From a virus, in the IMG/VR virus record IMGVR_UViG_3300023087_000087, positions 1-25,254 of that record: a DNA stretch of 25,254 nt; one strand, written 5' to 3'. The translations under genes and the position numbers were made by a program. Under the pieces are notes generated by a model. That model saw only the letters and a list, made by a program, of their open reading frames with translations, did not search any database and was not told the DNA's origin. The first letter of the stretch is position 1; every line of letters starts with the position of its first letter. Of the stretch, positions 2,599-23,896 are shown one piece after another.

Positions 2599-2606
2599 TA
2601 TTTATA
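2599..2606 (-). promoter_or_regulatory. T4-type late promoter, exact TATAAATA
   Basis: On the minus strand bases 2606-2599 read TATAAATA, the exact late-promoter box recognised in T4 by the gp55 sigma factor with its sliding clamp. The box overlaps the TAA stop of the giant gene (2604-2602). Placing the box at -13 to -6 puts the start of transcription near 2593, giving a leader of about 16 nt that contains GGAAA before the ATG at 2577. Function is inferred from motif and position. Confidence 0.65.
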
Positions 2607-8600: not shown

Positions 8601-11600
8601 CATCATATATTTCATATTTGTTTGTACTAGGAATACAAATAAATGTATCGCCAGTATTTGCTGTTTGGCTCCACACTACAAATTCTTCTGCAGTTGATTG
8701 CCAGTTAGTAACCCATCCTTGTGATTTTAAATATTCACCGTGTCCTAGTATAAAACTATATGTATCTTGTAAATTAGAAATACTATCGCCATACAACAGT
8801 TTACTTGGAATAGTTGTGTATGATCCATATCTTTCAAGTGCAATATCGCCGAAGTTTGAAATAATTTTTTTACTACTTTTTATTGGCTCAAAATACCATG
8901 CACTCATATTGTTTCGGTCAATGCCTACTACACTAAAACCTACTGCTAATTTAGTAAGTTGCAATCCGCCCATAAATGTTTCGTGATTAGGTTGATTTAA
9001 GTATAGTAGTGTTTGTAAATTTTCCTCTGGAATAGTTACACGGCCTTTTCCTTGACTACTTTCTAAAATAAATGATTGCTTGTTTGGATTAATAAATCCG
9101 CCTGCTTTGACAATAGGCTGTATACTTGCATTTTTAAATCTATCTTCTATTGTTGTAGCAGAAGTGTTATTATAATGTGCAAAGTCAATTACTGCATTAC
9201 TTAATCCAATGAAATATTTTTTAACGTTTTTAATTAAAAATGATTCAGCAACAATATTACCAGAACTAAACACTAGTCCTGGTTTACTTTGATATTCTTT
9301 ACCAGGATTAGTAACACTTACTGCAACTACTTTGTTATCTTCAACAATTGCCGTTGCTGTAGCATCAGTTCCGAAGTTTCCAAAAATATTAATACTAGGT
9401 GTAACTGTAACATCTGAACTAGATTTAACATCAATTTTTTCAACAATACTGTCACTATAATATGTATTAGACAAGTTAGTATTTCTAAAGTTGCCTAATT
9501 GTTTTACATTTGCATCAACGATAATATCATCAGGAATATTAACATTTCTGATAACCTGTCTATTGGTACTATCAAAAAATGTGTTTGTAATCCAAAGAGG
9601 ACGCAAACGTAATAATGCTAGTATTTGTAAAAACTTAAACTCGCTGGTTTTAACCCATTCAAACTCGAGACTCGACATATCTCCAAATACAAAATTTGCA
9701 GCACGTTCTGCTAATCCAGGTGCTGTAACTACACCAGCAGTAACAGGATCATTTAGTACATTTGCAGTTGTAACAAGTATTTGATTATCCCAGTCGTATC
9801 CGGTATATGCATATGTAAGATTATATTTAGGTGTCTCGGCAGGATCATTGAAATGTCCTGTTTTTAATGCTGTTATTAGTGCATTTCTTTTTACTGTAAA
9901 TGTCCAACTATAATTTGCATCCCACCAAGTTGGTTTAATACTATATCCTAACATTTCCCAAGGATGTGTATGAGGACGATCAGTATTAAAATAATATCTA
10001 TACAATCCTCTCCAGCCGCCGATACCTGGACCTACACTACTATAATTCCAGGTAAATTTGTTAGCAAGATTATAATACTCAGGATCTGTTATTGATGTTA
10101 ATCCGCTAGTGATAACAAAACGTTTAAAGTCTGGCTCAAGTGCTGCAATAAAATCATCCCATGTATAACTTGTTGGACGATTTGCACTTGGCATGATTTC
10201 TTTATAGTCAACTATATTATGTAGTTTTGTATTTAAATTATTGTAAATTCTTAACTCTAAATCGTATAAAGCAGCGTCAGCAATACTAAATCCTACAGTA
10301 GATCTATCAGTAATATTGTTTCCTTGTCTTGTAGTAATACTACCATCGTGTCCAACAAGCACACTTCTGCTTGAAATATTATCGCTTTCAACATCAAAGT
10401 TTTCAAACCCAGGTACAGTTGGTTTAATTAATCCTAACTTAACTGCACTCGGGGGAACAAAACTTTCACTATTAACTGCATACCAACGAACATGTAGTGC
10501 TGCACTATTGTTTGACGTTTTATACGTAATTGATTTATTAACAGTAATTTTGTTTGCAGTTAGTGTATAGTCAACGTCTTTAACTAAACTGTGCCATCCA
10601 TCGTTATCTTCGACCCATGCTTGAACATGATTAATTACATCGTTATATGTGTTAATGACACTTGGTAATTTAAAAGTAGTAGGTTCACCTGATTGCCACG
10701 CATAATCTGCACTTTCAAAGTTTTTAAACATTACCATATTGCTATTAGCATATGCGCTGTCAGATCCTTTTCCTAGATTAACATCAGATAATGCACGATC
10801 AACTATTTCGTGTACTGGTGTTTCAATAGGTAAATCTTTGTGTAGTTGTTCTACTTTTCTTAAAAACTGTTCTTTAAATTTTTTATAGTTTGCTGCAGCA
10901 TATCTAATACTATTATAAATGTTAGTATCAACGTCAGATGATAGTTGAGTTAATAGTGCAGTACTATATGGTTGCTTTCTTATGGTGCCTCCAAAGTCGT
11001 GTGCACGAGGTAGTTGTGCATAATTATTATGACCAAAATAGTCGCCATTGAACCCAGGAATATTAGTTACTTGTGAACGTAAATGATCTTGTAAGTCACC
11101 AAAACTTACTTCAGTTGCCCAATCATTAAATGGATTATACAAGTGTGTATCTGCAGGTTCAAAGTTTCCTGCTGCTCTACGATTTAGTTCACTGTCACTC
11201 CACCAATAAACATCAACTACATCATCTTTAATAAAATCGTGTGTTATAGTAAGTTTTGTATCAGCAAGTGTATAAAATACTGTTTCTTTTCCGTTGATAT
11301 AAACTTTTAAATTTAAATGATTTGTGTTTGTATCAACATAAATTAAACCAGTATTAGATGTATTTCCTACTTCACGATAACGTATAACACTATCTGTATA
11401 ACCAGCGTCTACTGTTAAAGTGATATTATAATTGTCTACTGCAGTTATTGTTACATCTACAAGTGCATTACCATCAAAGTCTGTAAATTCAATATCAGAA
11501 ATATCAAATAATGTTTGTATATGATATTCTCTGCCTTTACTAACAAACATGTCTGGATTGTTATTAGAAACTTTATGTATTTTAGTACTTGCATTTTCGG

Positions 11601-13887
11601 TAGAACAAGTACTAAAATAATATAAACTATTTTTTTGATTAATAATAAACTTGTTGTCTGTGTGTAGATCTGTTGTACCTAAATCAACTACAATAGGTGT
11701 TGTGCTATCAATTACATTATATGTTGCATGACGCTTTACCGGTTGTCCTGTTCTTAGTAATTTCCAGCCATTATAATGTTTACCAGTATCTAGCATTTTA
11801 TAAAAATAGTAACCTAGAATTTCTTGTGTATTACCTGTATCAAATGTTTGATGATATGTACTATTTTCTCGAATCTCATTATAATGATAACGTTTTGCAC
11901 CTAGTTCTAAATCAAAACTTAATCCTGGTGTATTGCCATAGTCGACATAACGTGGTGAGAACCCTAAACTTTCATCAATACGTCCAGAACTTTTTCCATA
12001 ATCAAAAATTCTATCGCCTTTGAATGTACTGTTTGGATAAACTGTTGTATCTTGTAGTTCTACTAAATCTGTATCATATAACTGGAACAATGCACCTTGA
12101 CTTGTGTGTTCTTTTTGTTGTCCATAAATCCAAGTATTACCATCCCAGTACCATTCACTTCCGCTATAGATAAGGTTGTCATGACTGTCATAAAATACTG
12201 CATTATAACCATTGATGGTCATAATTTTATGTCCAACTTCATAATCGGTTAAATCATAAACCAATGAAAGTGCTAGGTTTCCTGCAGTAGATCCGCTTAC
12301 TCTAAAAATTTTATTATTATAATCTGCGTTACTAGAATTAATAAACAACACCAGTTCGTCATCTTCGATTATCTTAGAATAAACTTGATTCCAATATTTG
12401 TTGTTTTCAAATAATACAGGATCTTTTGCTTCACCGTGTGTTTGTTTACAATCCCAATAAGTTGTTTCATTATTTCGAACTACTTTAACTAAGTCACCTT
12501 TATTATATCCTTTATTAACCCATGTTGTTGTTGTCAAATGTCTTGCTAAATCAAAGTATGGTTGTCCAACAATATCTACTGCAGGATCAAGTTGCTCGAA
12601 CATGTAATCAACAAAAGTTAAATGTTTTGTTCCGTAGTTGTATTTTTTAATATTTGCCTTATATTCAATAATCGGGCGAGTAGCACGAAGTTGTTCTATC
12701 ATGTAAAGTTTTGGATCATCATCTGTGAATTCACAAATTTCTTCAATTGTATCTTGGTGAATCCATAAGTTACTGCGAGCCCATGCACTTTGATCTAAAC
12801 TTGTACGTTCTTCAACTGTATATTCACGTGCTTGCATTTTTAGTTCACGTAAATCATATGGTTTAAATTCAAAACTTTCACCGTCAGGATCAAACTTTGT
12901 TGGACTCCTGCCGCTGTAAATTGTTTGGTTAAACCAAACACGTTTGCCATAGTTTTCTACATTACCAACAGGAACAAATTGTTTTGTAAAACTAATACCA
13001 TCTTTAGTGCCAACTCCGTCAACTATGTACACTTCTTCTTTTTGATATGTACCACTTACTGTCCAAAAACAATGTATTTCAACTTCATCACCTACTGCAG
13101 GTGCAGTAGTAAATTCATATTCGGTTGCACTAATTTTTGTGTAATCAACACCTTCTGTTTGTAAAACATTGTTTAAGTAAACATTGCTTTCTGTTGGATT
13201 ACTAATAGGACTTGTAAAAACTTTGTTACCAGAAACTGTTTGATGTATACGCTCAACATCAATACTTTCAAAACGTACTCTCATGCCGTTTTTAAATTCT
13301 AGTGTTTTGCCGTTACTTAATTCCGGAGTAGTATATTCAAACTTGCCTACAATGTCATCAATTGTTATGGGACCACTTGCTTTAGCAATAACATCAATAA
13401 TTGGAATAACATCAACTGCCCAAAAATATCTATGGTAGTTTACAAACATATCAATATTAATTGGTAGATCCAGTGTATAACCTTCTTCATCAAACACTCT
13501 ACTGTTTTGATTTAATTGTACGTCACTAAAGTTCATATTGTGTAATAGGTCGTCGTATGTGAGTGCATTTGTAACATTGTTATTATTGTCTTTGTTTACA
13601 AGACCCGGAACAAACTGATAAGGATCGCTAGTTCTTCCATCTTCAACATATGAATCAGTTTTTTCTCGTGTACTAGTTTTTGCGCCAACATAATGATTGA
13701 TAGCCTGCAAACTACCACTACTCATTAATTGTTCGAGTGTACTATCAAAAAATCGTTTGTTAACATCTGTTTTAAAAATTTCAGGCAGCAAACCTGTAAC
13801 ATTACGTGTACCTACATATTCAGAACTTTCGCCAGGTCTAGTAATTAAAGGTGCATTAATCGGTTTTGCTTGATATTTGTTGCTCAT
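2602..13887 (-). CDS. Giant baseplate wedge-type structural protein in the gp7 position (3761 aa)
   Basis: This single frame of 3761 codons follows gp6 with an ATGA overlap, the place gp7 holds in T4, but T4 gp7 is about 1030 residues. The start (MSNKYQAKPINAPLITRPGE, then LPEIFKTDVNKRFFDSTLEQ) is a virion-type N-terminus. The protein is modular. Two VYLNN/VYING beta modules lie near residues 222-280 and 846-899. A GKEYQSKPGLVF module, also seen in gp6, lies near 1489-1539. Three aromatic modules resembling carbohydrate-binding modules lie near 449-499, 2104-2135 and 3137-3185. A three-unit INxANIPN repeat lies near 2428-2616. Near 3480 the motif IKPFHTKL, and near 3650-3712 a segment with WIGSERIEYGARD and CKRGTLGTSA, resemble conserved parts of baseplate proteins in marine T4-like phages. 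No separate gp8 or gp10 homologue is visible here, so this protein may cover several wedge functions. The gp7 assignment rests mainly on gene order. Confidence 0.8.
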   Translation of the reverse strand: MSNKYQAKPINAPLITRPGESSEYVGTRNVTGLLPEIFKTDVNKRFFDSTLEQLMSSGSLQAINHYVGAKTSTREKTDSYVEDGRTSDPYQFVPGLVNKDNNNNVTNALTYDDLLHNMNFSDVQLNQNSRVFDEEGYTLDLPINIDMFVNYHRYFWAVDVIPIIDVIAKASGPITIDDIVGKFEYTTPELSNGKTLEFKNGMRVRFESIDVERIHQTVSGNKVFTSPISNPTESNVYLNNVLQTEGVDYTKISATEYEFTTAPAVGDEVEIHCFWTVSGTYQKEEVYIVDGVGTKDGISFTKQFVPVGNVENYGKRVWFNQTIYSGRSPTKFDPDGESFEFKPYDLRELKMQAREYTVEERTSLDQSAWARSNLWIHQDTIEEICEFTDDDPKLYMIEQLRATRPIIEYKANIKKYNYGTKHLTFVDYMFEQLDPAVDIVGQPYFDLARHLTTTTWVNKGYNKGDLVKVVRNNETTYWDCKQTHGEAKDPVLFENNKYWNQVYSKIIEDDELVLFINSSNADYNNKIFRVSGSTAGNLALSLVYDLTDYEVGHKIMTINGYNAVFYDSHDNLIYSGSEWYWDGNTWIYGQQKEHTSQGALFQLYDTDLVELQDTTVYPNSTFKGDRIFDYGKSSGRIDESLGFSPRYVDYGNTPGLSFDLELGAKRYHYNEIRENSTYHQTFDTGNTQEILGYYFYKMLDTGKHYNGWKLLRTGQPVKRHATYNVIDSTTPIVVDLGTTDLHTDNKFIINQKNSLYYFSTCSTENASTKIHKVSNNNPDMFVSKGREYHIQTLFDISDIEFTDFDGNALVDVTITAVDNYNITLTVDAGYTDSVIRYREVGNTSNTGLIYVDTNTNHLNLKVYINGKETVFYTLADTKLTITHDFIKDDVVDVYWWSDSELNRRAAGNFEPADTHLYNPFNDWATEVSFGDLQDHLRSQVTNIPGFNGDYFGHNNYAQLPRAHDFGGTIRKQPYSTALLTQLSSDVDTNIYNSIRYAAANYKKFKEQFLRKVEQLHKDLPIETPVHEIVDRALSDVNLGKGSDSAYANSNMVMFKNFESADYAWQSGEPTTFKLPSVINTYNDVINHVQAWVEDNDGWHSLVKDVDYTLTANKITVNKSITYKTSNNSAALHVRWYAVNSESFVPPSAVKLGLIKPTVPGFENFDVESDNISSRSVLVGHDGSITTRQGNNITDRSTVGFSIADAALYDLELRIYNNLNTKLHNIVDYKEIMPSANRPTSYTWDDFIAALEPDFKRFVITSGLTSITDPEYYNLANKFTWNYSSVGPGIGGWRGLYRYYFNTDRPHTHPWEMLGYSIKPTWWDANYSWTFTVKRNALITALKTGHFNDPAETPKYNLTYAYTGYDWDNQILVTTANVLNDPVTAGVVTAPGLAERAANFVFGDMSSLEFEWVKTSEFKFLQILALLRLRPLWITNTFFDSTNRQVIRNVNIPDDIIVDANVKQLGNFRNTNLSNTYYSDSIVEKIDVKSSSDVTVTPSINIFGNFGTDATATAIVEDNKVVAVSVTNPGKEYQSKPGLVFSSGNIVAESFLIKNVKKYFIGLSNAVIDFAHYNNTSATTIEDRFKNASIQPIVKAGGFINPNKQSFILESSQGKGRVTIPEENLQTLLYLNQPNHETFMGGLQLTKLAVGFSVVGIDRNNMSAWYFEPIKSSKKIISNFGDIALERYGSYTTIPSKLLYGDSISNLQDTYSFILGHGEYLKSQGWVTNWQSTAEEFVVWSQTANTGDTFICIPSTNKYEIYDGSRGYYDTVINRYDGIYNLIDHNGDEISPDKIIVSRPVNSTETSITTVETKENDTHILGLRLYRVELEHAIILENETDFDDIIYRPEIGQRHKRIIWRGSRTKEWNGKLYSPGYLVTDNTIIDNFDTTANASLDYFTTSSATVNNEQSVNAARFNIGYNKPDWSNYLTLNDDSIFNFTKGSRKYRGTKYGLNAFMRNTSILGGVSDANLYELWAIRTADFGDIRSRDTVEFTINDEALSTSPQVVKFHNDDHDDISIDDVINIDPTSPLLVTGSTENVFRTRPSKKYNVLTLTELTQFNNDFVTAGLPLLTETDFRVINKEDFEAFPVKNKESYDFSGTYEEIDAWSNRVSYKTNDLVIHEGYVWRMVDPDGSSGLQRPNEPIEVIGRVSTPSVPSDGQTLVIDNVVVTIKRTSESTKLETIEITGSENLNVQGVPNGSTLTIGQNSSINQTLTFENEVINLVWQPATKTGNVTNFSVEGNTDGSKELIIDGVSIVFDDAAPITTNVNIEDGYQAAFSSTFTTNQSTINSLVSTKISTFESFRTSVIDNQGITGWNQVLVDYFDTVSGIDINYLESIRNTFAVGSESELDALIVTDLAIINAIAGTSHTDHTLVPILDINTAKSALDTAPYITNIRNFAVNNSTSAFIASEIIATETTNGNKIYSDVEVVQKINDANIPNVTASLTAAGNLFISKDVPNATTQFSLVISSATANTEVGFATTNETIRSSGVNVLSTPDLTTVEVVEQINAAGIPNVSAIALSSGQVRILSNAASLFIGAGSANSFIGLNTGITPAQVTTITVDRTSDLTDTISSINNANIPGITASNSNNRLRLVSTNETMEIGSNGTANVTLGITAQLYVASPGTVSNVFETERYDDLGNSYTIFEKTEFDPHVFSIWTADNSEKSNINAGYNVYQAMHFSMFITKACAGIEEADEAQITIDLRDYSDEHQPFHNLQVGDYVLIAGSNTVPSIDGVRKVTRIDTENPNMFYIDEYIQEEGSAGNVYPIRSVRFSSYADLIANFNSYVTNPLSTDAPVVFKYNFGGKRHNGDPLYAFIDDDNGAPAVYRYTGKFRLTSGNYDGNWVKVRTAPNQSRSDLVENVKVYDANKRTLISVLEIYDPAKGIIPGFIDSEIDLKSTADNAIYNYTTYNGYEENEDAWTDRFIGTRWWDLSTSIYLDYEQGTEKYQQQQWGRLFPGSEIEIYEWTRSSVLPEEYEEFAATGGSLDGTIATGQPYSKVIDGETRYFWSEYSYFNPATKTSQTNYYFWVKNKESSSGIRNYNVNQLANMLTNFKDLGISWAASSLDSNLLLANIDKIITDDTVIQINQIYESNSLPLNEWTLLAENDPHTVIPEYLHIKIRDSLAGYNNYHDLYTYTEWNAASVYNRESVVTKDDKFYICLDDNVNVTDPVTDTNELHWARVYNYNLPPETESTDIEIWRGQPVPDLRLHEYNRYGHLTRPAQSLYRDITNARQNFVDATNEYLEDICVISEILNWDSVFYTTYVEGEVEYKLEHYWNFVDWSYKKYNNDGMLIYKHDTSVQPDYTFDNITSIIPVLPDVNAAADIPDGSYIYIKNSLHEDGINRPEMWYKENGTYSLRWKKNGTIALSDELWLESKFGHGFDAAGFDISGFDSGVSNIINLLMDLLRSKVFVGQYKEFYNKLWFRCLYQAIIENTADDFAFKTTYVKLAVDHPLIRDPKTYQNYGTTAIEKYFHDIKPFHTKLHTLEQRPSTVDNMTIQVEDEYQSEITIQMNDYTRQWNGDVILLGGTFTSSEAEDSYVDNGYTDDEYFRNDAFSYEFTTPEEDIATLYSGNVFIQPEYERIGEELVGLDLLENVRIMVQTNASGSTEDTDTRSFQINMFTNYNIQESIVIVDANKTTLSNDIRHNDTIIPLADVTVLADNTGVVWIGSERIEYGARDANNLLYCKRGTLGTSALDHLTGTTVIDAGDSVKLPIRDKFGHYGNELRLAYNESGRSLAASGTASDHAFIRDAGEGTI
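6040..6603 (-). repeat. Three tandem INxANIPN repeats inside the giant protein
   Basis: Three diverged units encode the pattern VxxINxAxIPxVxA, then a short strand pair (LFIS, VRILS, LRLVS), then an IG..-A/G-N-x-x-GL-like ending. The IN motifs are INDANIPN, INAAGIPN and INNANIPG, spaced 75 and 67 residues apart. The pattern recalls the flagellin IN motif family of hook and filament proteins, in which short beta hairpins form surface domains. This is a protein-level repeat; the DNA itself is only loosely repeated. Confidence 0.7.
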
Positions 13888-16800
13888 ACGATGCTTACTC
13901 CAGAATTGGCTGCAATACTAGTTGGATTTGCAGTAAATGCATTTGTGATTGTAACATTCGACGTGCTTAGTACAGGAATAAACAGTTCGTCGCTGTCGCT
14001 TCTTATTTCAAACAAATCTGCGTTAAAATCACTTACTGATTCAATTGTAACTTGACTTACTTGTCCAATTGTGTTATTATGTATGTATGCTGCAAGTTCG
14101 GTAAAATAAAATGTTTCACCAAAATCCCAGTTATTAATATTAAAATACTCTTCAATTAAACGAACTACTTGCTGTTTAATTTCAGTATCACTCATTGTTG
14201 CATTGCTAGTTTTAGTAACATTAAATCTTGCTTGTAACTCTTCACTTGCTAAATCTCCGAACAATATTTTATATCTAACAGGTCTATAAATTATTTGATC
14301 ACTTATAGACTTTTTACTATTAAGTCTAGCAAACAAATTGTTTAGTTCATGTACAGACGGAGGATTAGGTTTAGTATAAATTCTACCGTCTTTCTTTGCC
14401 CACAATCTAAAATCACTGTCATAACTTTCTAACAGCACAAATGTATCGATAATATTTGTAATACTAGGATCAATGACTTGTCCTAGGTCTGCAATTCTGT
14501 TATATTTTGTATGTAATTTTGCTCTACCTGCAGCAAGTTCAGTTCCTGCTGGATCCCATACTTTGTATTGAAATCCATCAATTGTTCTAATGCCTAACTT
14601 AGTAGTTTGTTCTGTAGCAATTTCATAAAATGCTGCAGGATTATCTGGATAACCGTCATTGTCTGGATCTGCAAGAGTAATACGAATTTTATGAGGATCT
14701 GTATATCCATCTAAATATGTAAAATACCCTGTTGCATTAAACTTATAATCTCTATTCAATGGTGTATGATCTGTTCCACTTTTTGTATTAATACTTAATA
14801 CTGTAATGCTATCTCTGCTTGGTTTTAGTGTTTCACTACTAAATGTTTCAGCAAAGTTTAAGTTACCAAATTTAATTTTTTGATCGCTGCCATAAACAAA
14901 TCTAGTTTTTCTAGTTAAAATTTCCCATTCTGTTGTATTATAGTTAACTCTAATAATCCAACTGTTGTCAACTCCGTTATTGCTTGCATCGCCTTCGTTT
15001 GATCTGCTCCATAGTGCAACACTATTATTTTGAACTCCACTAACAGGTAAATCAGCACTGTCAACAATTAACCACTGTTGCCCAGACGCATCATAACGTA
15101 ACCCAAAACTATTTTTATTTTCAAGTTTTGTTAATAATTCTGCTTTAATAGAATCAGATAATTCATATTCAAAACTAGGAACAATTCTTCTAATACGTGC
15201 ACCACTTGGAATTATCTTATTAAGAACAACAGCACCTCTGCCACGTTCGTCAATGCCAGTTGGTATACCAGTAGCATCATCTTCGCCTAATCCTGAACTG
15301 TCTAAACTCACAACACGTGCCCAAACATTATCTGCATCGGCTACTTCAACAACTGCTACAGCACCGCTACCTCCTGTTGATTGCGATTCGAACGTAATTG
15401 TAGTTGCACTATTATAATTAATACCACTGTCAATAATACTAACACTGTATACTTCACCGTTTGCGACTTCTGCTTGTAAAACTGCATCTGTGCCAACACC
15501 GTTAATTTTTACAGTAGGAGGATCTACATAATCTGATCCACCTTCGAGTATTTTAATACTTTTAATGTATCCCATTTTAAATGGCGCAGTAACAAATTCA
15601 GCAAGACCATTTACTTCTAACTTGCGCAAAGGTGTACCGCCTTTGTCGCCTAATCTCTGAGGAACACCGTTACGTATAATATTACCTGTGCATGTTTTAT
15701 GACTTTTAGTAACTTGATTCCAGCGGAATGTTAGTTCGTCAGATGCTAGATATGTAATTCCGTCGGTAGTTTTGGTATAATTTTTATTACGATCATGCAG
15801 TCCAGTTGTTGGGTAATAATGTCTATGATAATAAAAGTTTTTAACTTCTGGATTATTTAAAATAGGACGTATAAATTTTTGATAAAATGATTCGCTATTT
15901 ACGTTAGTAGGAAGCGAAACTATTTTTCTACTTGTAACTTCGTCTGTGTACAAGTATCCATCGTCGAAGTACTGTGTTGCATCACTGTATGTTGCAGTCG
16001 GATCATAAAAGTCCCTGAAGCGACTGTGTCCACTATGAATACGATTTACACTTTTAATTTTTCTAATGTTGTTACTAACAGTTAGCGGATATAAACTATA
16101 ATCTTCTGCTGTAACCATACGATCTTGTGTAGCAAAGAATCTACTTGCGTTAGCACGAATGCTGTCAATACTTTCTCTTGTACTTGCATTATTAATAGTG
16201 TCTTTAAGACTACAATCAAGCATTGCATTATATGTTGTTCCATCTTTGCCAATGTATTTAAATTGTATAGCAAGATTACTAATGTCTGATCCAGTTAATC
16301 TATAACTTTGATTTAATCCTGTTCTATACCAAACACGAATTGTACCACGTGGAATGTTACCAAAGTCGCCGTCAGCAAATACAATACTAATCTGATCATT
16401 TTCTCTACTACTAACTGTAAAGATGTCACGCTGATCATTGTTAACACTGTTATAAACTGCACTAAGTCCAAACAGTCTGTCAATGTATGTCCAGTTTTTA
16501 ATAACTTGACCTGCTTCGTCGATTGTTTGTACCCATACATTTCCGTTTGCAATATTTTGAGCGTTTATATCGAGTACTAAATTAGGTAATCCATTTTGTA
16601 CATTAAAATCTTTATATTCTAAGTTACCTTGTTTGAGTCCTAAGAAAAATCCAGTATTTGAACTATCGAAACTACTGTTATCATCACGATATAAAAAATC
16701 TAATACACCATAAGGGTTTGGTGTTTTTTCTTCTAGTTTATTCAAACTTTGATTATAATAAACACTGTGTGCTGTAAAGTTTGCTCTGGCTCCGTTAACA

Positions 16801-17411
16801 GTGCCTGTAAAGTCAAATACTACATCGTTGTCAACACTGGAGGTTCTGTATATTTCATTGCGGATATTATTACTGTCAGTAAACTTGTCAAATGGTTGAC
16901 CAAACTGACTGTTACTTTGTAATATTGAATTCATAATAGTTAAAAAGTTTTGATAATTGTCTGGATTATTTGTACCACTAAATTGTACAAAACGACCTGC
17001 TAAACTACTACCGTTTACATCATAAACATCTTCGTCTGTTCTTATACTGTTTATTTTTATAAAACCACTAGCAACAACATTACGAGTAGGTGTGTATCCT
17101 AAAAATTCAGCAATACGCAAGGCGCTTTCTCTGCGTTCTGCTGTACTTAAAAATGTTTCTCTTGTGTTTAAGTCATTTCTAAATGCCAAGTTATGTCCAA
17201 GGAATGCCATAAGTTCCATTAAACTTACAAATTCACTTGAACTGATCCAGTCGTTAAAGTTTTCTGGATAGTTGTTGTTCATGTATTCTACCATTGCGTT
17301 ACGAATGGTATCAAAATCATATGCTTGGAAGTTTGCTTGTGCAAAACTTTCATATATTACACTAAAATCTTCTGCAGCAAATAAACTGCTTTGTCTTGCG
17401 CCTTGTGCCAT
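13884..17411 (-). CDS. 6: Baseplate wedge protein gp6, enlarged (1175 aa)
   Basis: The N-terminal 120 residues, with FNDWISSSEFVSLMELMAFLG (52-72) and HNLAFRNDLNTRETFLSTAE (73-92), are the classic gp6 start. In T4 gp6 forms the dimer ring that ties wedges together around the hub. The C-terminus (about 1110-1140) has EEYFNINNWDFGETFYFTEL and AAYIHNNTIGQVSQV, typical of the gp6/J-like wedge fold. At 1175 residues the protein is much longer than T4 gp6 (about 660). Part of the extra length is a beta module at 612-690 (GGSDYVDPPTVKINGVG, then DSGINYNSATTITF) that looks like a surface insertion. The start shares one base with the gp25 stop (TAATG), and its TGA overlaps the giant gene's ATG (ATGA), so the wedge genes are translationally coupled. 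Confidence 0.88.
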   Translation of the reverse strand: MAQGARQSSLFAAEDFSVIYESFAQANFQAYDFDTIRNAMVEYMNNNYPENFNDWISSSEFVSLMELMAFLGHNLAFRNDLNTRETFLSTAERRESALRIAEFLGYTPTRNVVASGFIKINSIRTDEDVYDVNGSSLAGRFVQFSGTNNPDNYQNFLTIMNSILQSNSQFGQPFDKFTDSNNIRNEIYRTSSVDNDVVFDFTGTVNGARANFTAHSVYYNQSLNKLEEKTPNPYGVLDFLYRDDNSSFDSSNTGFFLGLKQGNLEYKDFNVQNGLPNLVLDINAQNIANGNVWVQTIDEAGQVIKNWTYIDRLFGLSAVYNSVNNDQRDIFTVSSRENDQISIVFADGDFGNIPRGTIRVWYRTGLNQSYRLTGSDISNLAIQFKYIGKDGTTYNAMLDCSLKDTINNASTRESIDSIRANASRFFATQDRMVTAEDYSLYPLTVSNNIRKIKSVNRIHSGHSRFRDFYDPTATYSDATQYFDDGYLYTDEVTSRKIVSLPTNVNSESFYQKFIRPILNNPEVKNFYYHRHYYPTTGLHDRNKNYTKTTDGITYLASDELTFRWNQVTKSHKTCTGNIIRNGVPQRLGDKGGTPLRKLEVNGLAEFVTAPFKMGYIKSIKILEGGSDYVDPPTVKINGVGTDAVLQAEVANGEVYSVSIIDSGINYNSATTITFESQSTGGSGAVAVVEVADADNVWARVVSLDSSGLGEDDATGIPTGIDERGRGAVVLNKIIPSGARIRRIVPSFEYELSDSIKAELLTKLENKNSFGLRYDASGQQWLIVDSADLPVSGVQNNSVALWSRSNEGDASNNGVDNSWIIRVNYNTTEWEILTRKTRFVYGSDQKIKFGNLNFAETFSSETLKPSRDSITVLSINTKSGTDHTPLNRDYKFNATGYFTYLDGYTDPHKIRITLADPDNDGYPDNPAAFYEIATEQTTKLGIRTIDGFQYKVWDPAGTELAAGRAKLHTKYNRIADLGQVIDPSITNIIDTFVLLESYDSDFRLWAKKDGRIYTKPNPPSVHELNNLFARLNSKKSISDQIIYRPVRYKILFGDLASEELQARFNVTKTSNATMSDTEIKQQVVRLIEEYFNINNWDFGETFYFTELAAYIHNNTIGQVSQVTIESVSDFNADLFEIRSDSDELFIPVLSTSNVTITNAFTANPTSIAANSGVSIV

Positions 17412-17776
17412 TATGCTATCTCACTTACGAAATTTAAATATAGTTCTTCTGCTGTGCCAGTTTCGATGTATTCGACTTGTGCATATACATTAATAGTATG
17501 CTCGTCTGGTTTTTGTAAACGAGTACTTAACAAATTCCAACGTGGATCGCTAGTAATAATACGTTCTACATCTTCTTTGATTACAGTTTCTGTATATACG
17601 TCTAAAGGTTCAAAAAGCATTTCCCAAATTATACTTCCAAATTCGGGATTAACTACTCGTTCACCTTTGCGTGTGTAAAAATGATTCATTAAATCACGTT
17701 TAGCGAGTTCCTTGTCTACAAGGATTCGACTCGATGATTTTTGACCAATTGAACTATATCCGATATATGTTGCCAT
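17411..17776 (-). CDS. 25: Baseplate wedge protein gp25 (121 aa)
   Basis: This is the small conserved gp25/GpW-type wedge protein, which with gp6 and gp53 forms the sheath-contacting core of T4-like baseplates. Diagnostic features are KRDLMNHFYTRKGERVVNPEFGS (26-48, a pattern shared by gp25 proteins of marine T4-like phages), LFEPLD (54-59, the position of the conserved EPR-like motif) and DPRW (77-80). The length matches the family (T4: 132 aa). The first ATG fits the usual N-terminus (MATYIGYSSI). No ribosome binding site is visible ahead of it, and a late-promoter-like box ends only 5 bases upstream. It lies in a short 39-base gap after the preceding gene and shares one base with gp6. Confidence 0.9.
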   Translation of the reverse strand: MATYIGYSSIGQKSSSRILVDKELAKRDLMNHFYTRKGERVVNPEFGSIIWEMLFEPLDVYTETVIKEDVERIITSDPRWNLLSTRLQKPDEHTINVYAQVEYIETGTAEELYLNFVSEIA

Positions 17777-17815: not shown

Positions 17816-18715
17816 TTAGATACGGATAAGCGTATTAATAATATCTTGATCTTTTAAGTCTGTAGTAATAATAAGTCTAGTGCCATCTACTGTAAAATCA
17901 AACTCGTTTTGTATACGATCGCCATTTAGATAAACTTCTAATTTTTCAACTGGCTTCATGCTTGGAGTTTCCGGCAAGGTAAAAATTGTAGTACTACCAT
18001 TGTATACAAATTTATTAGACAATAGTGTTTTTTCATATTCTTTAACTATTTGTCTTTTATTACTTTCAGGAGTATAAGGAAGAAACTTTCTAGTTTCCGC
18101 ATAGTATGCAAATCTAGCACGTTTTAGTTCGTTTTGTGCAAGTAAACGTGTTTCATTATTAGTTCTCATTGAATATATGCCACGAGTTCTAAACCAACTG
18201 CGTGGTTTAAGTTTTCCATAATCTGCTAATCTTAATACTGTTGCAGCACGAGTACATTGTTCTCTGTTAAAATTACTACGCATCATTATACTTGCAACAT
18301 CGTCCCATTCTTTGTTAGAAATTTTTTCTTTTATATCGTATATTTCTTCATTTGCATATACAAAATGTGTTTTATTAACAGCCCAAAAATATAACATTAA
18401 TCCGTCATATACACATTGCGGTAATTCTGTTAACTTATATATTTTTAATTGTCTTTTAAAAATTTGTTGTTGTTTATCAAATTGTTTATTCCATACGTTA
18501 AAGGCTTCTTGTTCAGTAATACCACGCATAACTGCGCCTTCGCCGTAACCATATCCGTCGTAACCTACATAGATAGAAAAATTTAACGCAGTTAATCTTC
18601 CTAACTCTGACATTTCAAGTTCTTCGTTGGCAATTTCAATGTTAAACAATTCTTCGTTTGTTACAGTAAAATCTTCCCATATTGTTTTTAGTGAATTGTC
18701 TATATCGGTTATCAT
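17816..18715 (-). CDS. Structural protein with a degenerate lysozyme-like domain and a fibre-type C-terminus (299 aa)
   Basis: I chose the ATG at 18715 rather than 18724. It forms an ATGA overlap with the stop of the upstream spike gene and has AGGA 8 bases before it, whereas the earlier ATG has only a badly placed one. Residues 37-170 follow the layout of the T4 lysozyme (GH24) fold: YDGYGYGEG where lysozymes have their glycine-rich TIGxGH loop, then GITEQEAFNVW, a helix QCVYDGLMLYFWAVN, and NKEWDDVASIMMRSN followed by RAATV. The last part lines up with T4 lysozyme QKRWDEAAVNLAKSR and its later RAKRV. The catalytic Asp and Thr are not evident, so it is likely a non-enzymatic structural relic. 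Residues 230-299 (FVYNGSTTIFTL, VYLNGDRIQ, DFTVDG) form a beta module common in phage fibres. Position between spike and gp25 implies a baseplate role. Confidence 0.7.
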   Translation of the reverse strand: MITDIDNSLKTIWEDFTVTNEELFNIEIANEELEMSELGRLTALNFSIYVGYDGYGYGEGAVMRGITEQEAFNVWNKQFDKQQQIFKRQLKIYKLTELPQCVYDGLMLYFWAVNKTHFVYANEEIYDIKEKISNKEWDDVASIMMRSNFNREQCTRAATVLRLADYGKLKPRSWFRTRGIYSMRTNNETRLLAQNELKRARFAYYAETRKFLPYTPESNKRQIVKEYEKTLLSNKFVYNGSTTIFTLPETPSMKPVEKLEVYLNGDRIQNEFDFTVDGTRLIITTDLKDQDIINTLIRI

Positions 18716-20352
18716 ACGTCCCATCCTACATCGCTATCCCAGTTACGTTTTGTTCTAGGATTAGCAGACGATACTGTTGGTTTTGTTCCTGCATCTACTA
18801 CTGTAGTTGTTGTCGGAGTTCCGGCAAATTCGCCATTGTCGCCGATTCTGAAAGTATCTTCAGGATTGCGCATTCCAGCAAATTCTCCTTCGTTTCCTAT
18901 ATTATATATGTCTCGAGTGTTTCTTGCAATAGAATTTCTAGCAAACTGTTGGTCAATAACCGAGTCTGGGTATATTGATGCTTGTAATTCTGAATTACTA
19001 GATGCTTGTGCTCGACGTTTTGGATTTTTTGATGCTCTACCTCTGCTTGATCCGCTGTTTCCTACACCAGTTGTTGCCAAATTATAATCGGTAGCATCTG
19101 GATCCAATGGATGACTTTTTGCTTGTGCTGCAATTTTGCTATCCTGTGCAGTATGTCCTCTCCAAGGTTCGGCTTCGGGTACACGACTAGTAATACTTTC
19201 TTTAACAAAATTATTAGAAGAAAGTGCACTAACAGTTGGTTTAGTTGCTTCTATTGCCGGAGGACCGTTTAAATCAATTAAATCGGCTGTGAGTCTCATA
19301 TGAGGTCCGGCTCGTAAATGCATATTTCTTTTACTTGTAAGTTTTAGATCTTCTTGTGCAAATAACTGTATTTGATCTGTTGTTGCTTCTAGTTTAATAC
19401 CATTTGTACCACGTGCTCTTATATTAATATCTTCTGCATCAACATTAAATTCGCCGCCTGCATAAAAGTTTATTGTATCAGCGGCGTGCATACTGATATT
19501 CTTATTACTGAATACATCTATGTTGCCAACAGCGTCTATTTCAACCCAGGCTGTTCCATTTTGATTAATAATGTAAATCATTTCAGCGCCATCAGTATCG
19601 TTCATTAAGATTTGTGCACCTTTACTACTACGTAGTCTTAATAATTTGTTTTTACCTTCTTCTCGGTTTTTGTCCGGAACATAATTAACACCTTCTTTGA
19701 AAGAAACTGTACCATCATCTAATACTAAACTATGACCGCCCGGTGTGTTAAATCCACTGACATTAGTCGGAGACTCACGTCTACCTCCACTACTACCATG
19801 TCCTCGCAATGAATCAGCAAACAAACCCTGCTGATCAATTGCTTCGCCTACTGGGTGTTTTTGTCTTGTTTCGTCGTGTTGTTTTTTAATATGGTGATCA
19901 TATGCTGTTTTAACTTCGCCAGATTCTGGATCCGGGGAAGAAGGATGCCCGGCAATCATTGCGTTTCTGTTAATGTCAGGTAATACACCTATTAGAAATC
20001 CTTCTTGATCTGTACCTGTAAATGCAACTAAAACTTCAGTGCCAGGTGCCGGCGGCGTCCATAAAGCGCCATAATTATTACTACCTTTATCGGATTGTAC
20101 GGTCCCCCCAAACGGACTCATTTGTCTTATTTTATGATATTTTTTTCGTTCTTTTTGTGTATTTTTTTCTCGAGATACTTCTGATCCTACTAGGTCAACC
20201 CAAATGTGTTGTTGATAACCATCATCGGCCATTTCAATAACTTTACCTATAAACAATCCAGTTAACCGATTAAGACCAGAACTATTTGCTTTACTATAAA
20301 ATAAATCTGGTATTCCGTTTGAAGAATGATTATATCCTGAAAATTTTGCCAT
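18712..20352 (-). CDS. 5: Baseplate central spike, gp5-like, without lysozyme domain (546 aa)
   Basis: This is the membrane-puncturing spike at the end of the tail tube. Residues 28-130 form an OB-fold domain: LNRLTGLFIGKVIE, HIWVDLVGSEVS, then LWTPPAPGTEVLVAF and GFLIGVLPD, the gpV/VgrG/gp5 pattern. Residues about 205-365 show alternating short strands (VEIDAVGNIDVFS, ISMHAADTINFYAGGEFNVD, INIRARGTNGIKLEA, QIQLFAQEDLKLTS) typical of the triple-stranded beta-helix of the needle. T4 gp5 carries a lysozyme between these parts; here only a 60-70 residue hydrophilic linker (about 135-200) is present. After the helix comes VPEAEPWRGH (391-400), then a low-complexity tail containing two copies of a GxxGEFAG motif (496 and 508 regions). 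The ribosome binding site AAAGG is well placed before the ATG. Confidence 0.85.
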   Translation of the reverse strand: MAKFSGYNHSSNGIPDLFYSKANSSGLNRLTGLFIGKVIEMADDGYQQHIWVDLVGSEVSREKNTQKERKKYHKIRQMSPFGGTVQSDKGSNNYGALWTPPAPGTEVLVAFTGTDQEGFLIGVLPDINRNAMIAGHPSSPDPESGEVKTAYDHHIKKQHDETRQKHPVGEAIDQQGLFADSLRGHGSSGGRRESPTNVSGFNTPGGHSLVLDDGTVSFKEGVNYVPDKNREEGKNKLLRLRSSKGAQILMNDTDGAEMIYIINQNGTAWVEIDAVGNIDVFSNKNISMHAADTINFYAGGEFNVDAEDINIRARGTNGIKLEATTDQIQLFAQEDLKLTSKRNMHLRAGPHMRLTADLIDLNGPPAIEATKPTVSALSSNNFVKESITSRVPEAEPWRGHTAQDSKIAAQAKSHPLDPDATDYNLATTGVGNSGSSRGRASKNPKRRAQASSNSELQASIYPDSVIDQQFARNSIARNTRDIYNIGNEGEFAGMRNPEDTFRIGDNGEFAGTPTTTTVVDAGTKPTVSSANPRTKRNWDSDVGWDV

Positions 20353-20363
20353 GTTTGTTACCT

Positions 20364-23300
20364 TTAATCATTGTATATATTTCTTAACCAACTCGGTGCT
20401 CCTGCACTACTTTCGTTGTTGCCCCAGAATGTTCCAGTAATACCGCCGCCGTCTGGACGATTATTTCTGCCAGATGCAATATCAAAATGACCTACATTAC
20501 CATTCATGTACCAATTGGACACAGAGTCCGTATGGTTTGCCCAGCCGATACTTGGATTAAAACCTTGTGAACGTGCATTGTTATAAAAGTTCTGACTAAA
20601 CTTAGCAATAACAGCACGGTCTGCTGGATTTGCAACACTTAACTGTCTACCATTCATAAACAGTGCAGTATCACTTGCATTGCCATGTGTATGTCGCCCA
20701 CTTCTTGTATTTCCACTGGTTCTTAATCCGCTTGTTGTTTGTAATGTAACACCTGTTTGATTTGCAGTTTGTGTTAACAAACTTGATAACGCTGGATCTA
20801 ATCCAGAACCTAAGTTATGATTTCCTGAAAAATCATTACCATTCAATGGATTTATATTACTATTACCTCGATCTCCACCATTTGTTTCATCTTGGTTTGA
20901 TCCTTCGTTGTTAGTTTGATTTGCTTGTTGTTGAGGATTTAATCCTGGCTGTTGTCCTGAGACTCCGCTTACACATCCTTTTAACAAATCTTCATACAGT
21001 AAGTTTGAATTAGTATTTGTATCTCTAAATGCCGCTAACAGCATTGAAAATTCTCCAGCATCATATCTAGCCTGTACTTGAAAAACTGTATACACACCAG
21101 TAATAGTAAATTGCCCTGTTCCTTCACGTGAACTTAAACTTTCAATTAGTCCACTACTTTCATTAGGATATGTAGGAAAATTTAAATTTAAGAAATACGA
21201 TATACCACCTGTCTCATAGCCGGCTCCGCCTCCTTGCTCGCCTAACCAGTACGGATCGCCACGAACAAAAACTTGCTGTGTCATTAAATCGCCAATAGCA
21301 TTTAAATTTAATTCCATTGCACCTAACATACTAGAACCAATGTCATCATTTTTTTGCTCAGGGCCACCGTTTGCAAGAGCATTAACTGGTGCATAATCAA
21401 ATGATTTTGGCAAAGGATCAACTGCTGTCTTATTGTTACCAGTGTATAAATCACTTTGTGTTATATATTTTTGACCAGCAGTCGGAAGACTAATTGCTTT
21501 GCCAGTATAACCTTGTCTTTGTGCTTCTAATGCACTGTCATATGCAGCATCTGCTGCAGTTATCAGTGGTGCAAGTTCACGTATTTCTTCCGCAATTTGA
21601 TCTAATCTTGCTTGGTAACGTTCTTTGATTTGTTGATTTGCAATTATAGCATCAGGTCCTGTTACTTCGAGCAAACTATCAGCAATCTCAGATTTAATTT
21701 TATTACGTTCACTTATAAGGTTATCACGCTGTCTCTGTAATTTAGTAGATTCATTTTTTTCAAAGTTTGTATTTTTTTGTCCGTCATGACTACTACCTGT
21801 AAACAGATCTGTAACACCTTTTAACGCACCACTATTAAGTGCTTGTATAGCATAATATGCTGTATCTAATTTAACATCTAAATTTAAAACTTCAGTATTA
21901 AGACCAGTAAATGTATAATCTAAACGCTTTTTTAAAAGTCCTTTGTTAAAAATATTTCGTAGTCTATCTTTTTGTGTTTGTTCTGATCTGTTTAATTTTA
22001 AATAACTAACTGGATCATGTACTAAAGATTGTGCTAAAACTTTATCAGCACTGTATGTTATTTCTTTACGATATTTTTTTGCTACATAATCGTACATATA
22101 AAACTTTACATCAGTTTTAAATTTAACCCATCTAGTTAGTTCAGCAATTTTTTTAGGATCTGCTTCACCTTCGTCTGGATCTGACTTAATAAAATCACCT
22201 GCATCGGTCCATACTTTTTTAAACTTTTTAGTTTGGAATAGTGCAACTGCAATTGCTGCATTAATTGCAGTACCTGATTTAAAACTAAAATCTAGTTTGC
22301 CATCACCTGTTACGCTGATTCTTCTTGTTTCTTGTAATGCTTTTGTATCAATTTGATCAAATGTCCAACTTGCCCATTCTTCTTGTGTAGTAAAAATATA
22401 TTTGTCACGTTCAACTTGGCCAATATTTCTTTTAAGTTGTTCATCAAGTTGCTTGTTATATTCTTCTTGAAAAACTTCTAAAAATTCTCCAAAATCTCCT
22501 ACGTTGGAAACTTTTATATCAGATTTTAAATGTAATTCAAGTCTATTAAACGCTTCTTCCTTTGTTTCAAAAAAATCACCATAATATGTACTGGCGCCAT
22601 CCTTGAAATCAAATGTCAATCCTGACAACAGTGTTGTATAGTAGTATGGACCAATTGTAGTAACTTTGTTTCCTTGCCATCCTTTAAATTCTAGTTTTAA
22701 AATATAACATGCATCTAAATGCTTTTCAATTCCTAACTGTTGTGCAGCATACACAATTCTATTAAACAATGTAAAACCGCCTGGTTCTAAAAATGTTATT
22801 GCAAATCTATTAGCAACTGCATTTCTGTTTTCTTTATCAAACGAAAGTGACAAATCTTGTTGAACACTTTGTATGCTAACTTCGTCATCGATTCCAGTTT
22901 GACTAATAATTATTGTATCATTACTTTCAGTTAATTCTGCCAAATCATTTGATGCTTTCAATGGGTGTACCATATATACAGTCCATTGATATGTATAACT
23001 ATCATATCTGTTTAAGATATTTTCGCTGTAATTACTAACACATCCACCTGTACCAAATGGTAAAGGTTCTCCGCCTGGTACTGCAGATGGATCTTCAACA
23101 GTGCCAGTACCAACTGGATCAACACTGCCTAGTCCACGAGTTATTGCTTCAATATCAATATCTTCAATTGATCCACCACCTAAGAATATTGCTTGTTCTA
23201 GTTTTCTTCTATCATATAATCCTTGATTAAACGAGCCTCCGGCTTTATTGTATTCTAACATTTTTGCAGAAATTTGTGCTTTTGTTCTAGTTCCATCTGC

Positions 23301-23591
23301 TGTTAATTCGTTTATACTACCAATGTTGTATGCAAAACTGATTAGTGCATCACGTTCGTTGGGCGTCCAATTGTAACGAGAATTAAATGAATTAACATTG
23401 TCTACATAAGGCGCTAATTGCGATTCGAGCATAATACGTGCTTGCTCTCTAGAAACACTCATATTAGGTCTGTTATTTGGATCTCTACTACCAGCATAAG
23501 ATCCATGTCCAATTGTCCACTGCTTTTCATCCCAGCGTGGTACTGGATCAAAACCTTCTCGTTCTGCAATAAAGTCGATTATGTCTGCCAT
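20364..23591 (-). CDS. Baseplate hub with N-terminal GH24 lysozyme and C-terminal M15-type peptidase (1075 aa)
   Basis: Residues 1-137 are a T4-lysozyme-type (GH24) domain. The candidate catalytic triad is E12 (EREGF), D21 (PRWDEKQ) and T26 (WTIGHGS), followed by SVSREQA and DALISFAYNIGS. A Gly/Pro-rich linker leads to a core of about 184-873 that contains YTYQWTVYMVHP, ANRFAITFLEPGGFTLFNRI and LKLEFKGW, the pattern of hub (gp27-position) proteins in marine T4-like phages. A predicted coiled coil lies around 612-695. After an Asn/Gln/Gly-rich linker (885-925), residues 930-1075 resemble M15 D-Ala-D-Ala peptidases: SGLR (954-957), RHTHGNASD (966-974, HxxGxAxD with H967 and D974) and GHFDIA (1034-1039, H1035) as putative zinc ligands. 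It would sit at the tail tip and cut peptidoglycan during entry. The hub assignment is inference; the lysozyme motif is clear, the peptidase motif good. Confidence 0.8.
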   Translation of the reverse strand: MADIIDFIAEREGFDPVPRWDEKQWTIGHGSYAGSRDPNNRPNMSVSREQARIMLESQLAPYVDNVNSFNSRYNWTPNERDALISFAYNIGSINELTADGTRTKAQISAKMLEYNKAGGSFNQGLYDRRKLEQAIFLGGGSIEDIDIEAITRGLGSVDPVGTGTVEDPSAVPGGEPLPFGTGGCVSNYSENILNRYDSYTYQWTVYMVHPLKASNDLAELTESNDTIIISQTGIDDEVSIQSVQQDLSLSFDKENRNAVANRFAITFLEPGGFTLFNRIVYAAQQLGIEKHLDACYILKLEFKGWQGNKVTTIGPYYYTTLLSGLTFDFKDGASTYYGDFFETKEEAFNRLELHLKSDIKVSNVGDFGEFLEVFQEEYNKQLDEQLKRNIGQVERDKYIFTTQEEWASWTFDQIDTKALQETRRISVTGDGKLDFSFKSGTAINAAIAVALFQTKKFKKVWTDAGDFIKSDPDEGEADPKKIAELTRWVKFKTDVKFYMYDYVAKKYRKEITYSADKVLAQSLVHDPVSYLKLNRSEQTQKDRLRNIFNKGLLKKRLDYTFTGLNTEVLNLDVKLDTAYYAIQALNSGALKGVTDLFTGSSHDGQKNTNFEKNESTKLQRQRDNLISERNKIKSEIADSLLEVTGPDAIIANQQIKERYQARLDQIAEEIRELAPLITAADAAYDSALEAQRQGYTGKAISLPTAGQKYITQSDLYTGNNKTAVDPLPKSFDYAPVNALANGGPEQKNDDIGSSMLGAMELNLNAIGDLMTQQVFVRGDPYWLGEQGGGAGYETGGISYFLNLNFPTYPNESSGLIESLSSREGTGQFTITGVYTVFQVQARYDAGEFSMLLAAFRDTNTNSNLLYEDLLKGCVSGVSGQQPGLNPQQQANQTNNEGSNQDETNGGDRGNSNINPLNGNDFSGNHNLGSGLDPALSSLLTQTANQTGVTLQTTSGLRTSGNTRSGRHTHGNASDTALFMNGRQLSVANPADRAVIAKFSQNFYNNARSQGFNPSIGWANHTDSVSNWYMNGNVGHFDIASGRNNRPDGGGITGTFWGNNESSAGAPSWLRNIYND

Positions 23592-23593
23592 TA

Positions 23594-23896
23594 TTATCTA
23601 TTCCCAGGATTACGGAAAGTTACAGGAACTACTATCTCCATACCACTACGAAAATCTTGTACAGGGTCTTTAAGAGATTCTCTATTATAATGTGCAATAA
23701 CCCACCATAGGTTTGCGTTTCCGTACAAGTCATATGCTAGTAAGTCTGGACGTCTGTCATACTTACTTTCTACTTTCATAGTTTTTGTTTCTCTGTTTAA
23801 TGTTTCTCTTGTTAGACTAGGACTGTAAGATTCTAAGTACTTACGATTCATTGAAGTATTGAAATAATTACTGTTTTCTTTATACGTTGTAGGCAT
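23594..23896 (-). CDS. 53: Baseplate wedge protein gp53 (100 aa, LysM-like)
   Basis: The core RRPDLLAYDLYGNANLWWVI (48-67) followed by NRESLKDPVQDFRSGMEIVVP is the hallmark of gp53-type wedge proteins, which have a LysM-like fold and, with gp6 and gp25, make up the wedge core. T4 gp53 is longer (196 aa), so this is the compact form. Its start shares one base with the preceding stop (TAATG), and it is 2 bases from the next gene. A ribosome binding site AAGGA lies ahead of the ATG within the upstream gene. Confidence 0.8.
   Translation of the reverse strand: MPTTYKENSNYFNTSMNRKYLESYSPSLTRETLNRETKTMKVESKYDRRPDLLAYDLYGNANLWWVIAHYNRESLKDPVQDFRSGMEIVVPVTFRNPGNR

Follow-up and report, generated by a model that had tools for sequence, protein, structure and literature searches.

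Positions 20364..23591 of the window, the 25,254-bp viral record analysed here, encode on the minus strand a baseplate hub with a hydrolase-type domain at each end. This protein is very probably the gp27-equivalent hub of an uncultured T4-like myovirus, to which a GH24 muramidase and an M15-type zinc peptidase are tethered, which would cut murein at entry. The original prediction of such a hub gave no strand; its boundaries coincide exactly with an open reading frame that has an ATG start, 1075 codons and zero internal stops. The residues it singled out (E12, D21, T26, H967, D974 and H1035) all lie at those positions of the translation, and alignment columns place the last three there as well. 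The gene and its parts are as follows.

20364..23591, minus: two-ended baseplate hub gene (single ORF, 1075 aa)
23172..23579, minus: N-terminal GH24 lysozyme domain, residues 5-140 (PF00959, PDB lysozymes)
23514..23558, minus: predicted GH24 catalytic residues E12, D21 and T26 (alignment of GH24 hubs)
23031..23171, minus: Pro/Gly/Glu-rich linker, residues 141-187 (sequence composition)
20967..23030, minus: gp27-like hub core, residues 188-875 (phrog_11190, AF2, Foldseek)
21510..21785, minus: two-helix coiled-coil insertion in the core, residues 603-694 (AF2 helices)
20817..20966, minus: Gln/Asn/Gly-rich linker, residues 876-925 (sequence composition)
20367..20816, minus: C-terminal M15-like (LAS-fold) putative zinc-peptidase domain, residues 926-1075 (AF2, Foldseek, hhalign)
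20691..20693, minus: putative Zn ligand H967 (invariant, 35/35)
20670..20672, minus: putative Zn ligand D974 (invariant, 35/35)
20487..20489, minus: putative Zn ligand H1035 in a GHFD motif (invariant, 35/35)

Gene and genomic setting

The hub gene lies directly upstream of the gp5-like spike gene. Both belong to a minus-strand baseplate cluster, which runs from a cytidylyltransferase-like protein and a virion structural protein through the gp53-like protein, the hub, the spike, a 302-aa protein, gp25 and the gp6-like protein to a 3761-aa protein.

23594..23896, minus: gp53-like baseplate wedge (PF11246 E 3.4e-5; phrog_7145 E 1.2e-20)
18712..20352, minus: gp5-like spike, 546 aa (phrog_13211 E 1.3e-22)
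17816..18724, minus: 302-aa protein, GH24-related but divergent, lacking the catalytic Glu (family alignment A7)
17411..17776, minus: gp25 baseplate wedge (PF04965 E 1.7e-8)
13884..17411, minus: gp6-like baseplate wedge (phrog_10646 E 2.6e-266)
2602-13887, minus: 3761-aa virion protein (near half of the window)

The gene order near the hub is that of the cultured jumbo myoviruses Atu_ph07, Kaldavass, PA5oct, Serratia BF, RaK2 and 121Q. The capsid family gp23 (PF07068) occurs in 4 of 10 relatives' contigs, which fits the label 'T4-like' for the lineage. We also notice that the 3761-aa protein partly resembles the giant structural proteins found in jumbo phages.

Family labels such as phrog_7 and others reading 'endolysin' would suit a late lysis enzyme rather than an entry protein. 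However, the chain is fused to a gp27-like core, its gene sits in the baseplate operon between gp53 and gp5, and the hubs of cultured relatives are structural, that of PA5oct by mass spectrometry. A lysis enzyme is thus an extremely unlikely reading.

A comparison with 50,697 phage records gave no near match to the window. L002, an independent contig, encodes an orthologue of 1074 aa that is 89% identical and has both ends. The closely related hub L003 (62%) lacks the C-domain, which might suggest a fusion created by assembly or chimerism in the window. The same architecture on L002 refutes an artefact, and the first survey adds 13 more intact hubs with both ends, so that we give this explanation practically no chance.

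In the 302-aa protein, whose gene lies between those of gp5 and gp25, the GH24 catalytic Glu/Asp seem lost. PF00959 is detected in 6 of 33 members of its family (best 1.3e-5), the window member not among them, and a GH24-type protein occupies the same place in Kaldavass and BF. This protein may be a lysozyme turned structural.

Domains of the hub

At the N-terminus, PF00959 spans residues 10-132 with E 2.5e-15 (57.4 bits vs a curated cut-off of 22.3), and PDB lysozymes align with residues 23-137. All 6 hubs with GH24, the window's among them, keep E12 and D21; at position 26 the window and L002 have Thr and the other four Ser. The D-T spacing is one residue shorter than in T4L. Judged by sequence, the domain is a GH24 muramidase of predicted activity, in agreement with the original prediction. 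It is joined to the core by the poorly conserved linker 141-187 (alignment A1).

Residues 189-784 of the core match phrog_11190, a 'virion structural protein' family, with E 9e-32. The AF2 model of the core, built from 42 sequences, reaches pLDDT 78 and pTM 0.72. Foldseek matches it to the phi812 hub (9e-9), Mu gp44 (1.4e-5) and T4 gp27 (1k28_D, 3.3e-5; also 2z6b_D and 9mkb_iC), as well as VgrGs and the P1 hub. The probability is 1.00 almost throughout, and hub, Tal and VgrG proteins account for essentially all of the top 38 matches. The TM-score against gp27 is modest (0.25, query-normalised). Such low scores arise from extra domains and from the coiled-coil insertion, whose long helices occupy model positions 420-459 and 463-511, and we therefore call the core a gp27-like hub and not a close homologue. 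Sequence similarity to T4 gp27 is absent in a direct hhalign comparison (0.2%), and a PDB profile search of the core returned generic coiled-coil noise from the insertion only. Mu gp44 is likewise without detectable similarity to gp27 (PMC3004832), so sequence similarity is no defining feature of this fold group. The modelled fold supports the assignment of the core as a gp27-like hub.

The C-domain follows the linker 876-925, the least conserved part against L002 (78%). Taken by sequence alone, it has no usable match in Pfam, PHROGs, PDB or tblastn against phages; an exact-pattern scan for its relatives returned L002's contig only, and a scan of genome contigs with the domain found zero relatives. 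It is detected only by a profile of 35 homologues together with an AF2 model and a fold search. The homologues share 20 invariant positions, among them D1037, Y1028 and the three residues of a putative zinc-ligand set of the form H-x6-D ... H. The model (pLDDT 89.8, pTM 0.86) finds as its first six PDB matches LysB4, LysECD7, ChiX, the T5 endopeptidase, Ply500 and the RB49 endopeptidase (6akv, 8q2g, 5opz, 2mxz, 2vo9 and 23ri), all M15C-type, at modest TM-scores of 0.35-0.44 (query-normalised). Hedgehog and VanX, which share this fold group, come next, and M15 peptidases also appear among the viral-model matches. The original prediction had staked itself beforehand on a gp27-like core and an M15 fold in the C-domain, and AF2 and Foldseek recover both.

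Further comparison comes from profiles. PF08291 is touched by 4 of the 35 relatives, weakly (best E 0.0069). By hhalign, the hub C-domain matches the Peptidase_M15_3 (PF08291) domain on the spikes of a clade with bare hubs at 93% (E 2.5e-7), which we count as decisive for the M15 reading. E. coli MepK, compared as a single sequence, aligns motif for motif at a low hhalign probability. The acidic general base that M15C enzymes carry three residues before the last His is absent from the window domain and not conserved in its family; this position is N1032 here and N, D or T in relatives, and we file the domain as M15-like, not M15C. The model and the profiles support an M15-like zinc peptidase, in which the conserved set would bind zinc and catalyse.

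The replacement at N1032, together with the failure of the window domain to reach any Pfam M15 model, could also mean that the C-domain binds peptidoglycan or uses zinc structurally and no longer cuts, leaving only the lysozyme active. Asn holds the same position in MepK, which has N-x-x-H-x-D and is annotated as an active L,D-endopeptidase. Moreover, loss of catalysis has to be set against the invariance of the three putative ligands, D1037 and Y1028 in 35/35 homologues, an M15 position that swaps between the hub and a PF08291 domain on the spike, and strong purifying selection on the C-domain. We regard a non-cutting domain as improbable and retain the peptidase. Between the window and L002, dN/dS is 0.097 for GH24, 0.092 for the core and 0.072 for M15, and reaches 0.145 in the Gln/Asn-rich linker, the loosest part. 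The low values at GH24 and M15 indicate that both ends are maintained by purifying selection.

On a separate point, the GC content of the enzyme domains (0.38 and 0.41) is higher than that of the core (0.33). This is consistent with later acquisition of the enzyme domains, and also with their Gly/Asn-rich composition.

Occupancy of the two ends among relatives

A survey of IMG/VR by core profile, counted as intact reading frames among the best 80 loci of a longer list, displays four states of the hub. Both ends are occupied in 15 hubs (window, L002, L026-L031, L034, L035, L038, L046, L047, L067 and L068), the N end only in 7 (L012-L016, L018 and L050), the C end only in about 35, and neither end in 16 (L075-L081 and L083-L091). 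A C-domain common to the window, L002 and L003 was considered and rejected, since L003 is without it. A second scan, with the C-domain as query, covered 67 loci and gave the further two-ended hubs L100, L109, L112, L117, L121 and L129, some of which may be near-duplicates. The expectation that related marine phages share the design thus holds for uncultured IMG/VR relatives, but for none of the cultured relatives examined; the word 'marine' is our assumption from IMG project numbers. With the window hub, two other two-ended hubs and one bare hub as queries, no phage record reached 80% coverage.

The N-slot, a single place on the hub, is filled by any of three types of glycan cutter: GH24, PF18013 Phage_lysozyme2 (best 5e-27), or a third, phrog_873-like type (E down to 3e-46), which PHROGs labels endolysin or tail injection transglycosylase. 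The core tree implies at least 6 changes of N-slot state and at least 3 changes of C-domain presence; these are lower-confidence counts from a quick tree with some long branches. No second copies of PF00959 and PF18013 were found at E <= 0.001 in 15 longer records, possibly all fragments.

The M15-like module also occurs on gp5-like spikes (L108, L115, L122 and L124), on proteins that match an amidase family (L123, L125 and L126) and on another tail protein (L131). It caps several kinds of tail-tip and murein-hydrolase protein, which makes a wall-cutting enzyme the best reading of it. Of the adjoining gp5-like spikes in the clade with bare hubs, 6 of 39 carry PF08291/PF05951 (best 7.8e-22). 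Here the M15 domain lies at the spike C-terminus (L078 10067-11800, L080, L086, L087, L089 and L084). Two side observations concern these loci. The amidase-matching proteins (L123 1579-3459, L125 716-2818 and L126 2602-3693) combine phrog_822 amidase with the M15-like module, a two-hydrolase combination. Meanwhile, in the bare-hub clade (L075, L080, L086 and L087), an HNH-endonuclease-like ORF of ~183 aa lies between a 237-aa ORF and gp25.

The terminal domains might instead serve autoprocessing or assembly, given that TP901-1 Tal is processed and its endopeptidase was first blamed. That processing persisted after mutation of a zinc ligand (PMC9692632), and the occurrence of three types of glycan cutter in the N-slot suggests murein as the substrate, which leaves processing modules very unlikely and entry enzymes the preferred reading.

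We give about an even chance to a broader proposal. In one lineage of T4-like phages, the gp27 hub and not the spike may have become a docking platform with two enzyme slots. Glycan cutters from various families would replace one another in the N-slot, and the M15 of the C-slot could move to the adjacent spike. Murein specificity would then evolve by swapping ends, and the enzymes would remain at the tip of the tube, free of gp5-type autoinhibition.

Proposed action at entry and comparison with known systems

We propose that each hub chain would combine the gp27-like core with an N-terminal GH24 muramidase and a C-terminal M15-type zinc peptidase. By analogy with gp27, a trimer would bear three muramidases and three peptidases. 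Sheath contraction would drive the tube through the outer membrane first; around the tube tip, the muramidase would then cut glycan strands and the peptidase stem peptides, resulting in a local opening of the murein. Cutting both should open it faster than either alone. The hub would in this way keep activities that relatives place on the gp5 spike. Flexible linkers attach the enzymes to the hub, so even if the spike is lost they should remain at the mouth of the tube.

Such a hub suggests that the tube-mouth part does the wall cutting in this lineage. The relatives form a natural series, with zero, one or two enzymes, three N-slot types and M15 on hub or spike, in which tail-tip enzymes can be tested for a link to host murein.

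In T4, the lysozyme lies inside gp5 between the OB fold and the beta-helix, and gp27 is without enzyme. The beta-helix limits it to 10% activity, and the enzyme acts once that helix has come off. Both gp5 and gp27 reach the periplasm as a complex; what becomes of gp27 in the course of infection is described as unknown (PMC3004832). The window system resembles T4 gp27-gp5 in the gp27-like fold of its hub and in having, at the tail tip, a GH24 domain with catalytic E/D/T. In contrast to T4, its spike is bare and its hub bears the lysozyme and the putative peptidase. A lysozyme still on the spike was considered and rejected, as domain and profile searches of the window spike found neither lysozyme nor M15 matches. 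T4-style autoinhibition by the beta-helix presumably cannot work alike here, because the lysozyme is not between the OB fold and the beta-helix.

The Rak2-like, Eneladusvirus, Arenbergviridae and Polybotosvirus jumbo phages share a homologous hub core and the gene order of the window, whereas their hubs are bare and their enzymes lie on gp5 or a separate ORF. These hubs measure 663 aa in Atu_ph07, 793 in Kaldavass, 674 in PA5oct, 790 in BF, 707 in Vibrio 2.275.O, 777 in RaK2 and 749 in 121Q, and a Pfam scan of the first three found no enzyme domains. Kaldavass gp5 (L009 11046-13745) is a two-enzyme spike, with M23 at residues 565-621 and GH24 at 776-891. In Atu_ph07, gp5 (L008 10911-13508) ends in a trypsin-like domain (PF13365, 6e-17), unexpected in a puncturing spike, and a Phage_lysozyme2 protein is encoded shortly downstream.

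In evolved VgrG of the T6SS, a gp27/gp5-type hub-spike carries a C-terminal murein hydrolase. VgrG unites hub and spike in one chain with an enzyme at the spike end only, whereas in the window they are separate chains and the hub has enzyme domains at both ends. The C-domain shares the LAS fold and H-x6-D ... H with MepK and the M15C L-Ala-D-Glu endopeptidases (T5 endolysin, LysECD7 and Ply500). Those are free endolysins or cell enzymes, while the window domain is a hub fusion, and its family does not conserve the D/E that M15C has three residues before the last His.

A hub with both activities is already known from siphophages of Gram-positive bacteria, in their Tal proteins. TP901-1 Tal has a gp27-like domain followed by glycan-degrading and endopeptidase domains in tandem on its C-terminal side (PMC9692632), and enterococcal Tal architectures (DA3) pair PF18013 with M23 (PMC10194240). 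Like the window hub, these join a gp27-like or Tal-position PF06605 N-terminal domain, a lysozyme-type domain and a zinc peptidase in one polypeptide. The earlier view that the design lacked a standard T4-like precedent therefore stands for enzymes at opposite ends of a T4-like hub, but not for a hub with two hydrolases (PMC9692632, PMC10194240). The window hub differs from TP901-1 Tal in placing its enzyme domains at opposite ends, from these Tal proteins in using GH24 and M15 instead of phi29-type/PF18013 and an M23-type peptidase, and from the Dit-Tal module of siphophages in its gp53/gp25/gp6 myovirus baseplate cluster. Our literature search, covering open-licence papers, found no gp27-like protein with an N-terminal lysozyme. 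Compared with that literature, the opposite ends, the M15 domain, the exchangeable slot and the T4-like setting are new.
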